In this document: positions 3,986-36,486 of the stretch, in pieces
How the letters are laid out: every line of letters begins with the position of its first letter
How positions within the stretch are numbered: the stretch's first letter is position 1
Assembly: GCA_016194375.1 (NCBI GenBank)
Contig: JACQBU010000057.1
Coordinates: 1 to 36,855, forward strand
Reading direction: 5' to 3'
DNA: 36,855 nt
DNA from: Nitrospinota bacterium
GTDB taxonomy: Bacteria > Nitrospinota_A > UBA7883 > JACRGQ01
The notes under the pieces: model-generated
Seen by the model: only the letters and a program-made list of their open reading frames with translations
Told to the model about the DNA's origin: nothing
Databases searched by the model: none
Program-made: the position numbers and the translations under genes

Positions 3986-4061
<76 letters not shown>

Positions 4062-4136
4062 ATACCCTAAGATGGAGAAGGGAAAGTCTAACAGAATCCC
4101 GCCAAAAATCCATAACGGAAAATATCGGGTATTTTG

Positions 4137-4255
4137 TCAGTTTGAAAATAATCGAAAAAAAAGGGTCGGGATTGCTTCGCTTCGCTCGCAATGACAAATA
4201 CTTGTCATCGCGAGACCTCTCAAAGAGGTCGTGGCGATCCCCATAAATTTCAAAC
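4137..4255. repeat. REP/MITE-like element, copy 1
   Basis: It starts TCAGTTTGAAAATAATCGAA and ends ATAAATTTCAAAC. It matches 8889-9009 almost base for base, including GGGATTGCTTCGCTTCGCTC, the TGACAAAT/TTGTCA palindrome and the GACCTCTCAAAGAGGTC hairpin. The ends are inverted repeats (CAGTTTGAAA/TTTCAAAC). No coding capacity. Confidence 0.75.
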
Positions 4256-4373
4256 AGAGGCACTACCAAATATCGGGTGCCGGCTCGGTTTGCCACAAAC
4301 TGGCAATTTTATGCATCGGGCACTCGTTGGTGTCAACGGATTTATCCTGTTGTTGCGTCCCTTTGGGACGCAA

Positions 4374-8574: not shown

Positions 8575-8650
8575 CAAGACGCCAAGGATGGAAAGAATCC
8601 ACAGATTGCGCGGATTATCGCAGATAAGAAAAATACCCCTCCTGCGCCTC

Positions 8651-8783
8651 CCCTTTCCAAGGGGAGGAAAGAGGTGGGGTTTTTAGGCATTGTTCCCCGC
8701 CCCCTTTCCAAGGGGAGGAAAGAGGCGGGGTTTTTAGGCATTGTTCCCCGCCCCCTTTCCAAGGGGAGGAAAGAGGCGGGGTT
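8651..8783 (+). repeat. 51-bp tandem repeat, 2.6 copies
   Basis: Units start at 8651, 8702 and 8753. Each contains CCCTTTCCAAGGGGAGGAAA (a CCCCTTTCCAAGGGG-type palindrome), then GAGGCGGGG and TTTTTAGGCATTGTTCCCC. The CCCCGCC...GGCGGGG pairs between units allow large alternative hairpins. The unit length is a multiple of three, so open frames appear on both strands, but none has a start or product that looks real. Confidence 0.85.
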
Positions 8784-8869
8784 GCCCCTTAAATCCGTGG
8801 ATAAAATTCTTAGCGTTCTCCGCGCCGGCCTTCGTCTTGCTTTCGCTTCTCGTCCCGGCCGCGACTTGG

Positions 8870-9027
8870 CGGCCGGGGCGGTAGCGCCTCAGTTTGAAAA
8901 TAATCGAAAAAGAATCGTGCGGGATTGCTTCGCTTCGCTCGCAATGACAAATAATTGTCATCGCGAGACCTCTCAAAGAGGTCGTGGCGATCCCATAAAT
9001 TTCAAACTGTGGCGCTACCGCCGGGGC
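8870..9027. mobile_element. MITE-like element with 26-28-bp terminal inverted repeats
   Basis: The left end CCGGGGCGGTAGCGCC then TCAGTTTGAAA (8873-8899) mirrors the right end TTTCAAACTG then TGGCGCTACCGCCGGGG (9000-9026), with only a few mismatches. The interior (8900-8999) is the same REP-like unit as at 4137-4255. With no coding capacity, long inverted ends and a second copy elsewhere, it fits a non-autonomous miniature element. No target duplication is evident. Confidence 0.6.
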
Positions 9028-9123
9028 AATCGGCTGTCCCACACGGCCCGTTCCGTGGTACTATGCCGAGGTGTCGAGCCGCAAGCATGAAACCTGGCAA
9101 AATTTTGTTTTGGGATTGACCAT

Positions 9124-10566
9124 ATGAAGATAGTTTTTATCGAGCCTAAGTCTCCCGGCGTCCACATCTATTCCCACACCCCCATGCCCCGACTGGGAAC
9201 CTTGATTCTGGCGACGATACTCCGCGACAACGGATACGACGTGGAGGTGCAAATAGAGGAGCTGGGCGCCATAAGGCGGGATTCCATTAGAAGCGCCGAC
9301 GTTGTCGGCATATCCATCATCACCCCCACGGCACGGCGGGGATACGAGCTGGCAAAAATCGCCCGCGAGGAGGGAAAGACGGTCGTCATCGGCGGCCCGC
9401 ACGCCACGTACCTGCCCGACGAGGCGTTGTCGCACGCCGACTACATCTTCCGGGGGGAGGGGGACGAAAGCATCCTTCCGTTCATCAAGGCGCTTGAAAG
9501 CCGCTCCGGCTTCGAGGGCGTCCCCGGCCTCTCGTGGCGGGACGGCTCCGAGACGCGCCACAACAAGAGGCCCGGCTACTGCAAGAACCTGGACGCCCTT
9601 CCGTCGCCCGACTTCAACCTCATCACCAACGCGACCCGGCACATGTCCGTGACGCCCATTTATACGAGCCGCGGGTGCCCCTTCGACTGCGGGTTTTGTT
9701 CCGTCTCGGACATGTTCGGCAGGCAGTTCAGGACCAGAAGCAACGAAAAAATCCTCGAGGACCTTCGCGTGCACAGGCGCCTGGTGGCCGACCAGAAGGT
9801 CGTGACGGGAAACGACATATTTTTTTACGACGACAACTTCACGATAAACAAAAAGAGGGTCAAGGGGCTCCTTAACGCGATGGTGGCGGAGGGTCTCACG
9901 CCGCCGTGGGCCGCGCAGGCCAGCTCGGACGTGGCCGACGACGAGGAACTCCTTGAGCTCATCGGCCGCACCAACTGCTACTACCTTTACATCGGGTTCG
10001 AGTCGGTGAACCCCGCCACCCTGACCGCCTACAACAAAAAACACACCCTGGAAAAAATCGAATACTCCATAAGCCGGATAAACGCACACGGCATAAAGAT
10101 ACACGGCATGTTCGTGGTCGGGGCCGACACCGACGACAAGGAGGTCATAAGGCGAACCGCAAAGTTCGCACTCCGCACGAAGATCTCCACCGTGCAGTTC
10201 ATGATTCTCACGCCGCTCCCCGGAAGCCGGACCTACGACGAGATGGCCGCGGAGAACAGGATAACGACGCGGGACTGGTCCCTTTACGACACGCACCACG
10301 TCGTCTTCAAGCCGAAGAATTTCACCGAGCTGGAGCTCCAGATTGAAACCGCGAGGGCGATGCTGATGTTCTACTCTTGGACGAACTTCCTAAACAAGGT
10401 CGTCGAGTTTTCCATTCACTTAAAAAACCTCAAGTTGAACTTCCGCCAGATAATCCTCTCCGTATACGGCCATTATATGGTGAAGGGTTGGCTCAAAAGC
10501 CATAAGGACTGGATGGCCCTGCTCGCCGACCGGGGCGCCGACCACGCCGCCGACAACAAGACCTAG
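9124..10566 (+). CDS. B12-binding-domain radical SAM protein
   Basis: A 480-residue enzyme with a cobalamin-binding-like N-terminal domain (about 1-130, including VVGISIITPTARRGYELAK and VVIGGPHAT) and a radical SAM core. The 4Fe-4S cysteines are Cys185, Cys189 and Cys192 in the motif SRGCPFDCGFCS. The FFYDDNFTINKKR segment (about 237-249) and GFESVNPATL (about 290) are typical of this class. The C-terminal 80 residues are helical and Lys-rich. Members methylate or rearrange lipids, cofactors or natural products, but the substrate cannot be deduced. ATG 9124 has only a weak upstream ribosome site (GGGA). A terminator-like structure follows, so it is probably monocistronic. Confidence 0.9.
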   Translation: MKIVFIEPKSPGVHIYSHTPMPRLGTLILATILRDNGYDVEVQIEELGAIRRDSIRSADVVGISIITPTARRGYELAKIAREEGKTVVIGGPHATYLPDEALSHADYIFRGEGDESILPFIKALESRSGFEGVPGLSWRDGSETRHNKRPGYCKNLDALPSPDFNLITNATRHMSVTPIYTSRGCPFDCGFCSVSDMFGRQFRTRSNEKILEDLRVHRRLVADQKVVTGNDIFFYDDNFTINKKRVKGLLNAMVAEGLTPPWAAQASSDVADDEELLELIGRTNCYYLYIGFESVNPATLTAYNKKHTLEKIEYSISRINAHGIKIHGMFVVGADTDDKEVIRRTAKFALRTKISTVQFMILTPLPGSRTYDEMAAENRITTRDWSLYDTHHVVFKPKNFTELELQIETARAMLMFYSWTNFLNKVVEFSIHLKNLKLNFRQIILSVYGHYMVKGWLKSHKDWMALLADRGADHAADNKT

Positions 10567-25267: not shown

Positions 25268-25520
25268 TTGCCGCGGTCGTCCTCATCCCCCCGCCCTCGT
25301 CCTGTTTGCATCCGCATTCGTCACCGCAATCGCCTCTCGTCCTGGCCGCATGAGCCTTCGTCTTGGCTTTCGCTTCTCGTCCTAGCCGCATCAGCATTCG
25401 TCTTTGCTTAGAAGCTCTCGTCCTGGCCGTATCTTGGCGGCCAGGGCTTGGCTGACGGGGAATCCAGGTCAATTAAATCCGGTTCTCCGCCGGGGTTTAC
25501 CCCGGTGGCGCGGACGCTCT

Positions 25521-25671: not shown

Positions 25672-25899
25672 TTTGTCCGCGTTGCGTCCTCCGGACGCAA
25701 GTAGCAAAACCTTAGCCGCTAACGCGGCAAACGCAGACAGGAGTGTCTGCGCCACCAATAGTCTGGATCCCCCCATTCGGGGACGAGGGTTGCGGGCTAG
25801 GGACGGATGCGGCCCGTTTTCACGGAGATGACAAGTGAGGGGGCGGGAACGACGAAGTTTCGGCATCCGTAACCTCTGAAAACGCCCCGGTTGTTGGGT

Positions 25900-25981
25900 C
25901 ATTGCGAGGAGCATGGCGACGAAGCAATCTCCAACACATTGACGGAACATATCGTGGGATTGCTTCGCTCCGCTCGCAATG
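25900..25981. repeat. REP-like inverted repeat
   Basis: The left arm CATTGCGAG...GAAGCAATC (25900-25929) pairs with the right arm GATTGCTTCGCTCCGCTCGC...AATG (25958-25981), separated by 28 AT-rich bases. It is related to the interior of the MITE-like units at 4137 and 8889. Confidence 0.7.
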
Positions 25982-26099
25982 ACGTACTACCGCCCCTTTT
26001 CAGGGTTCCCATCAATGAAAAGTCGAAATGCGATAAAACGTCTGCCAACCAGTACGAACGCGTCCGGTTCCTCCGGCCAAGTCCGGGAGAAACCGGTTT

Positions 26100-36406: not shown

Positions 36407-36486
36407 CGGACAATTGTACTTTATTCCGGCGAACGACGCCCGTCGAGCCCCGATTGGGTAGCGGGTCAGTTTCAAATTTTTGGTTG

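Follow-up and report, generated by a model that had tools for sequence, protein, structure and literature searches.

The window analysed here is a stretch of 36,855 nucleotides (positions 1 to 36,855) of contig JACQBU010000057.1 of a Nitrospinota bacterium. It holds two copies of a miniature element (MITE), each closed by inverted ends (TIRs) and lying between two copies of an 8-bp direct repeat of the target (TSD). The features of copy 1, which is the element under study, and of copy 2 are as follows.

8880-9019, + strand: MITE copy 1, 140 bp, with its own place among the genome matches, a TIR pair, an exact 8-bp TSD and a hairpin
8880-8899, + strand: left TIR of copy 1, GGTAGCGCCTCAGTTTGAAA, 1 mismatch against the consensus
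9000-9019, - strand: right TIR of copy 1, 2 mismatches against the consensus
8872-8879, no strand: left TSD of copy 1, GCCGGGGC, 8 bp, perfect direct repeat
9020-9027, no strand: right TSD of copy 1, GCCGGGGC, 8 bp, perfect direct repeat
8900-8999, no strand: internal palindromic core of copy 1, nested hairpins including TTGCTTCGCTTCGCTCGCAATGACA / TGTCATCGCGAG...
9059-9064, + strand: predicted -10 hexamer TACTAT, 39 bp past the end of copy 1 and upstream of a 480-aa ORF (9124-10566)
4128-4267, + strand: MITE copy 2, 140 bp, whose left TIR has decayed to 3 mismatches, compared to 1 in the right TIR
4120-4127, no strand: left TSD of copy 2, AAATATCG, 8 bp
4268-4275, no strand: right TSD of copy 2, AAATATCG, 8 bp
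4085-4090, - strand: predicted -10 hexamer TAGACT of tRNA-Ala, 37 bp past the end of copy 2, conserved in G001 (same genus)
3986-4061, - strand: tRNA-Ala (CGC), the gene downstream of the predicted promoter targeted by copy 2

The TIR consensus of the family is GGTAGTGNCTCAGTTTGAAA (20 bp), and the window has 5 TIR-like matches, while 0.00 are expected from 100 shuffles. An initial annotation had described a MITE-like element at 8870-9027, with 26-28-bp inverted ends and a core made of smaller palindromes. The element is indeed a MITE of 140 bp by its TIRs, TSD, copies and transposase-bearing kin, and its core is the series of nested hairpins listed above. The ends are inverted as described, but their length has to be revised. 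The inverted arms at 8872-8904 and 8995-9027 span 33 nt and are 85% complementary; placed beside other copies, they resolve into a 20-bp TIR and the 8-bp direct repeat GCCGGGGC. The longer inverted end was read because this TSD happens to be partly self-complementary. Likewise, the second copy that had been placed at 4137-4255 is present, and is slightly longer (4128-4267), with TIRs and a TSD of its own. The predicted RNA fold of copy 1 has -67 kcal/mol (z -10). The MITE has no coding capacity, and the listed ORFs of at least 90 aa merely traverse it into the flanks. At the gathering threshold no Rfam family matches the MITE, and the tRNA is the sole match in the window. Just upstream of copy 1, at 8650-8802, a 51-nt repeat (CCCCTTTCCAAGGGGAGGAAAGAGG...) occurs three times in tandem, the third time partially.

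The genome of this bacterium (1.91 Mb in 135 contigs, estimated to be 94% complete) is rich in such elements. Locus L131, in a Nitrospinales MAG, agrees in its paired-end coordinates, its ends and the 12 flanking bases with L050 of G009, a genome of the same family, which makes Nitrospinales or a neighbouring group the probable home of the host. A search with copy 1 reports 46 matching places, which amount to about 40 copies, since six are second pieces of a copy already listed; two of the copies are those in the window. Most are 140-141 bp long with a palindromic core. The sequence CAGTTTGAAA occurs 58 times, versus 6 times for its reversed control, and the genome-wide search for the ends that the initial annotation had proposed gives 79 matches with up to 3 mismatches, versus 1 for the reversed control. 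We paired the ends that lie 130-260 bp apart and compared the 8 bp outside them. Among the 31 pairs the TSD is exact in 14, has 1 mismatch in 5 and 2 mismatches in 4 (23 pairs with 2 or fewer), while it has 3 mismatches in 4 pairs and more in the other 4. When the length of the duplication is left free (exact repeats of at least 4 bp in 12-base flanks of paired ends, L043-L180, elements of about 130 bp to about 4 kb), all exact repeats are of 8 bp except two of 5 bp. A second subtype of the MITE (L035, L036, L037 and L039) has the same ends and palindromic core with a different arm, GAAATTTGGGAACCTTTGCAAA or close to it.

The ends are not confined to miniature elements. An exact scan of a genome collection with the end consensus finds at least 118 stretches, and in several phyla there are elements of about 2.0-4.2 kb that have the same ends and 8-bp duplications. 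A relative of one transposase, intact or fragmentary, is found in 23 of the 27 elements of at least 900 bp, and a small basic protein carrying a KGG-type motif also occurs in 23 of the 27 (one of these proteins, in Mesorhizobium, is annotated as 'histone H1'). The initial annotation had supposed a transposase elsewhere and proposed to look for a full-length element with the same ends. One such element exists in the same family (G008:C45:7679-10559): it is 2881 bp long, carries the transposase inside, has GGTAGTGTCTCAGTTTGAAT as both TIRs, one base off the MITE consensus, and is flanked by an exact 8-bp TSD. Many more exist in other phyla. The transposase has three matches in G001 and one each in G008, G006 and G004, all three of the same family, at E < 1e-80. 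In the bacterium's own genome, at its estimated 94% completeness, the search for the transposase gives 0 matches, so that present activity of the MITE is unproven. Among phage records there is one distant match to the transposase (33% identity), without an annotated feature.

What kind of transposase is this? Intact reading frames have 266-363 aa. When 16 of the transposases are compared with the NCBIfam models, the IS1 model NF033558 matches 16/16 with the lowest E-value of any family (best 6.4e-20), and it is also the best model for each of three transposases scored singly, with 63-72 bits, which is below its curated cut-off of 100 bits. We therefore use the label IS1-related, rather than IS1. 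The IS6 model (16/16) and the IS481 model (12/16) match more weakly. In Pfam, PF03400 (DDE_Tnp_IS1) scores 2 of 3 transposases above its gathering score and 1 of 3 below it. The transposase alignment has invariant D66, D136 and E194, a D-D-E set on an RNase H fold, and these residues are the putative catalytic ones. The structure model (pLDDT 81) shows a helical region at the N-terminus, and its best PDB match by Foldseek is the ISCth4 transposase (6xg8, E 6.7e-6), which we take to be an IS256-family, Mutator-type transposase. The full-length elements also carry passengers (in L066, L088, L103, L132 and L379): a P63C-domain protein, an HTH with an IrrE-like peptidase, and a protein with a weak HARE-HTH match. 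Our guess is that some of these genes could be defence or addiction modules. In the window itself, a 349-aa ORF at 1466-2515 on the - strand resembles, by eye, an integrase-type (IS481/IS3-like) transposase.

Evidence of mobility comes from unoccupied sites, that is, from the presence/absence differences that had also been proposed as a check. For a full-length insertion in an Acidiphilium plasmid, empty sites align without gaps (130/132 and 131/132) and have a single copy of the 8 bp. For another in a Mesorhizobium plasmid, the empty sites align at 129/132 and 128/132, also ungapped and with a single copy of the 8 bp, one base of which differs. Closer to the locus, copy L014 of the same genome as the window sits inside a repeat, and unoccupied copies of that repeat are found in the same genome, at 96.5% over 86 bp with no gaps. 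That repeat, centred on GACGAGAAGCGAAGGCAAAGACGAATGCTGATGCGGC, is dispersed and partly tandem (L014, L030, L033 and window 25296-25433), and a similar sequence interrupts MITE copies in L028, L031 and L033. For copy 2, the tRNA-Ala region of G001 serves as the comparison. The orthologous tRNA-Ala is 100% identical over 79 bp, and its upstream sequence is 86% identical over 37 bp including the TAGACT -10 hexamer; the 150 bp inspected upstream contain no MITE. This empty site is at footprint level and not base-precise, because the sequence past the insertion point does not align. For copy 1, the neighbouring ORF (radical-SAM-like, by eye only) was used as an anchor, and it has no match in G001 and one in G006, at 65%, so that no empty site was obtained for this copy. 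An empty-site search for a Hoeflea element returned that element as its sole match.

Where do these elements insert? The first clue was that copies aligned in register have TATAAT-like hexamers 38-39 bp past one end. For both ends of an insertion, we scored a TTGACA-N16-18-TATAAT promoter at each offset and used the end with the higher score; offset 15 was then set against offsets 25-109. The promoters are thus consensus predictions, and each flank supplies its own control through its other offsets. An insertion was included if it has a paired end and at most one mismatch in the duplication; in the four main sets, insertions with repeated flanks were also dropped. The sets, and where the score peaks, are the following.

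Own genome: 19 insertions from 35 sources (the window and 34 loci); peak at offset exactly 15, z 8.2
G011: 28 insertions from 40 regions, out of 136 end matches; peak at offset 15, z 8.7
G017: 29 insertions from 40 regions, out of 92 end matches; peak at offset 15, z 12.9
Other loci: 44 insertions from 136 loci (L043-L180 less two from the own genome), among the matches listed; peak at offset 15, z 10.1; the 40 that remain without 4 overlaps give z 9.4, still highest at 15
Further set: 13 insertions from 20 regions of G001, G002, G004-G006, G008, G009 and G058

These sets total 133 insertions, of which 129 are unique (one is repeated between G017 and the other loci, and three between the other loci and the further set). 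An exact duplication is present in 96 of the 129; 100 are MITE-sized and 29 are long. Pairs of the own genome that fail the duplication filter are outside these sets, although they are inside the count of 31 pairs given above.

We observe that 94 of the 129 unique insertions have a promoter score of at least 7 at offsets 14-16, compared to 15% (maximum 24%) in control triplets of offsets, which leaves 35 of 129 without such a score. The elements of at least 900 bp alone (29) also peak at offset 15. When the best site over offsets 0-59 is taken, it is at exactly 15 in 23 of 57 insertions with a score of at least 9, and in 14 of 24 with a score of at least 10. The -10 hexamers are found mainly at 38 or 39 as the spacer varies, and since the position of the -35 is sharper than that of the -10, the register appears to be set by the -35 side. 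In the own genome, 15 of 19 insertions reach a score of 7, the exceptions being L014, L017, L025 and L039. Both copies in the window barely reach it; the predicted promoter next to copy 1 has a weak -35 at offsets 14-16, with whole-site scores of 6, 6 and 7 of 12. Three annotated plasmid insertions outside the set score 6, 6 and 3, and two of them are those with the clean empty sites. The elements tend to land about 15 bp upstream of a predicted sigma70-type -35, with one end facing the promoter. No further motif is seen in the oriented flanks besides the promoter hexamers, whose columns are biased by the choice of ends.

A fixed orientation of the MITE with respect to the promoter was suspected at one point, from copies that had all been printed in the query orientation, and was rejected: the better-scoring end is the left one in 9 cases and the right one in 10 in the own set, and 70 versus 63 across all sets, with ties counted as right. 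Of the 129 insertions, 6 have a second GGTAGTG-like end immediately next to the duplication, while control offsets average 0.24% each and reach 3.1% at most; this is expected if the same site is used repeatedly.

Promoters in Bacteroidota have a different code, TTTG ... TAnnTTTG, with the latter at -7. In 81 unique Bacteroidota ends (pattern matches with up to 3 mismatches and no duplication filter, so that chance matches are included and dilute any signal), an exact TAnnTTTG is found at offsets 36-38 in 8, against a background of 0.08 per offset. By offset, the counts are 2, 2 and 4 of 81 at 36, 37 and 38, and 0, 1 and 3 of the 47 ends with at most one mismatch. At offset 38, it is found in 0 of 152 ends of the own, G011 and G017 sets, which are of sigma70 type, and in 2 of 88 ends of the mixed set, both from Bacteroidota loci (L080 and L082). 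A two-part Bacteroidota score is highest at offset 13 (z 3.4-3.8); for the 47 closer ends it gives z 2.3-2.5, and another offset is higher. These counts are suggestive of Bacteroidota insertions tending to face a Bacteroidota-type promoter motif at the matching place.

Our main reading, to which we give a probability of roughly 0.8, is that the element is a non-autonomous MITE which an IS1-related DDE transposase mobilises in trans, with integration directed to promoters at a 15-bp register. What the sequences themselves exhibit in its favour are the ends, the 8-bp duplications, the ends in common with transposase-bearing elements, the empty sites, and the fixed phase to predicted promoters. 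The transposase would recognise the GGTAGTGNCTCAGTTTGAAA ends of the MITE and make 8-bp staggered cuts. Its integration complex would be directed to a promoter such that the edge of the element is set 15 bp upstream of the -35 box, and either end of the element may face the promoter. Because the edge lies 15 bp upstream of the -35, duplication would affect the 8 bp around -50 to -43 and leave the promoter intact, an insertion specificity that would spare the host.

Since insertions tend to be 15 bp upstream, the element probably recognises either the promoter-bound RNA polymerase or the promoter itself. We infer contact with RNA polymerase because the -35 is placed more sharply than the -10, and because Bacteroidota insertions tend towards Bacteroidota-type motifs. 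The transposition complex would then be seated against the upstream edge of the promoter-bound polymerase, perhaps touching it near sigma region 4 or the alpha-CTD. Integration guided by RNA polymerase is in our view the likeliest mechanism. We consider that a broader claim has about even chances of being right. It says that an IS1-related lineage present in several phyla, distinct from the Mutator-type transposases, docks on promoter-bound RNA polymerase at a fixed -35 register, and hence follows the housekeeping-sigma promoter code of its host, be it sigma70-type or Bacteroidota-type, while its MITEs come to sit at promoters throughout the genome, again at this register.

The alternative with the most in its favour, and still one that we find rather unlikely, is that promoter DNA is read without RNA polymerase, by the transposase or by a partner that the element encodes (the KGG-type protein, for example). 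The sharpest signal in the flanks is the -35 motif. The transposase has an N-terminal helical region, and a sigma-factor HTH model (TIGR02985) matches 5 of 16 transposases, although its best E-value of 0.037 is not significant; the KGG-type protein in 23 of 27 long elements is another candidate reader. The different motif that Bacteroidota insertions tend towards at the corresponding place, a suggestive result, argues against it, as does the fact that the promoter hexamers are the only motif that stands out in the target. The register could also come from survivorship, if selection purged insertions elsewhere and those immediately upstream of promoters were merely tolerated. Insertions within genes or core promoters should indeed be harmful. 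But under tolerance one would expect insertions to be spread over a broad zone upstream that stops at an edge, and what we observe is a peak at 15, one base wide, in four sets and for both MITE-sized and long elements; survivorship fails as an explanation for that reason, and the second ends that abut the duplication in 6 of 129 insertions, well over the control values, speak against it too. We regard it as improbable.

Two other readings dispute the identity of the element or of its mover, and both have very low odds. The same specificity, 15-17 bp upstream, has been published for Mutator-type promoter-targeting elements (PMC3942029, as far as the available part of that paper goes), which makes an element of the ISLre2, ISKra4 or TnGBS kind a conceivable mover of the MITE. 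Yet the transposases inside elements with these ends are IS1-related. The 16 transposases match 24 NCBIfam families at E of 1 or less; the names ISLre2 and ISKra4 are absent from these, and IS256 is the sole Mutator-type family recognised among them, in 4 of 16 (best E 3.5e-4), versus 16 of 16 (6.4e-20) for IS1; this mover is very unlikely. Least credible of all is that the palindromes belong to a REPIN or REP-type repeat, or to a transcription terminator or attenuator, instead of a transposon with TIRs and TSDs. The strongly palindromic core and its very stable fold would suit such a repeat, and a related short palindrome does stand alone near 25900-25985 of the window. To our knowledge, REPINs are pairs of REPs moved by a Y1 (RAYT) transposase, without TIRs and TSDs, whereas here there are 20-bp ends, 8-bp TSDs, ends in common with transposase-bearing elements, and empty sites. 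The REPIN reading of the core was dropped on sight of the TIRs and the 8-bp duplications.

Insertion aimed at promoters has been termed unusual among prokaryotic transposases (Guerillot et al. 2014, PMC3942029). In the available part of that work, the TnGBS/ISLre2 elements (p-MULT 3) and some of the ISKra4 group (p-MULT 4) insert upstream of sigmaA promoters, at 15-17 bp from the -35, and do so in both orientations when their inverted repeats are near-perfectly complementary. Its authors suggest that the elements touch the RNA polymerase initiation complex, and tie promoter targeting to a conserved aspartate motif between N1 and N2; the word 'MITE' is absent from the main text as available. 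The present elements likewise tend to insert at such a distance upstream of a predicted -35. The difference is in the transposase, which is Mutator-type there and IS1-related here, with a MITE family of the same specificity, and because it is IS1-related we do not place the present elements among the p-MULT members. It is possible that both groups have the specificity from a common ancestor, given that the best PDB match of the transposase model is ISCth4. The promoter specificity is already published for TnGBS, ISLre2 and ISKra4; in the open-access literature as available, the accessible part of PMC9208149 included, we found no report of IS1-related promoter-aimed insertion or of these ends.

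With respect to IS1 itself, the likeness goes beyond the NF033558 matches in 16/16, as several relatives are named 'IS1 family transposase' by NCBI. IS1 makes duplications of 8-9 bp, has GGT- ends and an insA/insB frameshift, and is about 0.8 kb long. The 8-bp TSDs and GGT- ends of the present elements agree with this; their intact frames of 266-363 aa in place of a frameshift, and their length of about 2.0-4.2 kb with passengers, do not. The promoter register may be a further difference. From what is accessible of its description, MITEAba12 (PMC6382973) is likewise a short non-autonomous mobile element derived from an IS, a likeness of description. The Ty3 retrotransposon at Pol III genes (PMC8632968, in the part available) is eukaryotic, and is a functional analogy only.

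The 8-bp duplication, the IS1-related transposase and the promoter register go beyond what the initial annotation had seen. The same 15-bp register in another transposase family suggests that the upstream face of RNA polymerase may be a recurrent docking site; alternatively, the register may predate the divergence of these DDE families. Insertion upstream of an intact -35 would spare genes and could reshape upstream control regions in register, and in genomes of uncultured organisms such elements would serve as natural flags for where promoters lie. If the Bacteroidota result holds, it would offer a direct way to tell reading of the host sigma factor from reading of the DNA sequence.

A few repeats in the window resemble parts of the MITE. 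In a search of the open-access literature, neither the internal palindrome GTCATTGCGAG nor the end sequences are mentioned. The palindrome at 25898-25984 is a lone pair, GTCATTGCGAGGAGC...GAAGCAATC / GGATTGCTTCGCTCCGCTCGCAATGAC, similar to the MITE core and without TIRs, and in view of it the MITE may have acquired its core by capturing a distinct REP-like repeat. At 36457-36476 there is a solitary end-like sequence with 3 mismatches, with CCCGATTG before it and palindromic repeats GCACGGGCTAAAGCCCGTGC downstream; this may be a decayed element, or one of another kind that has this end.
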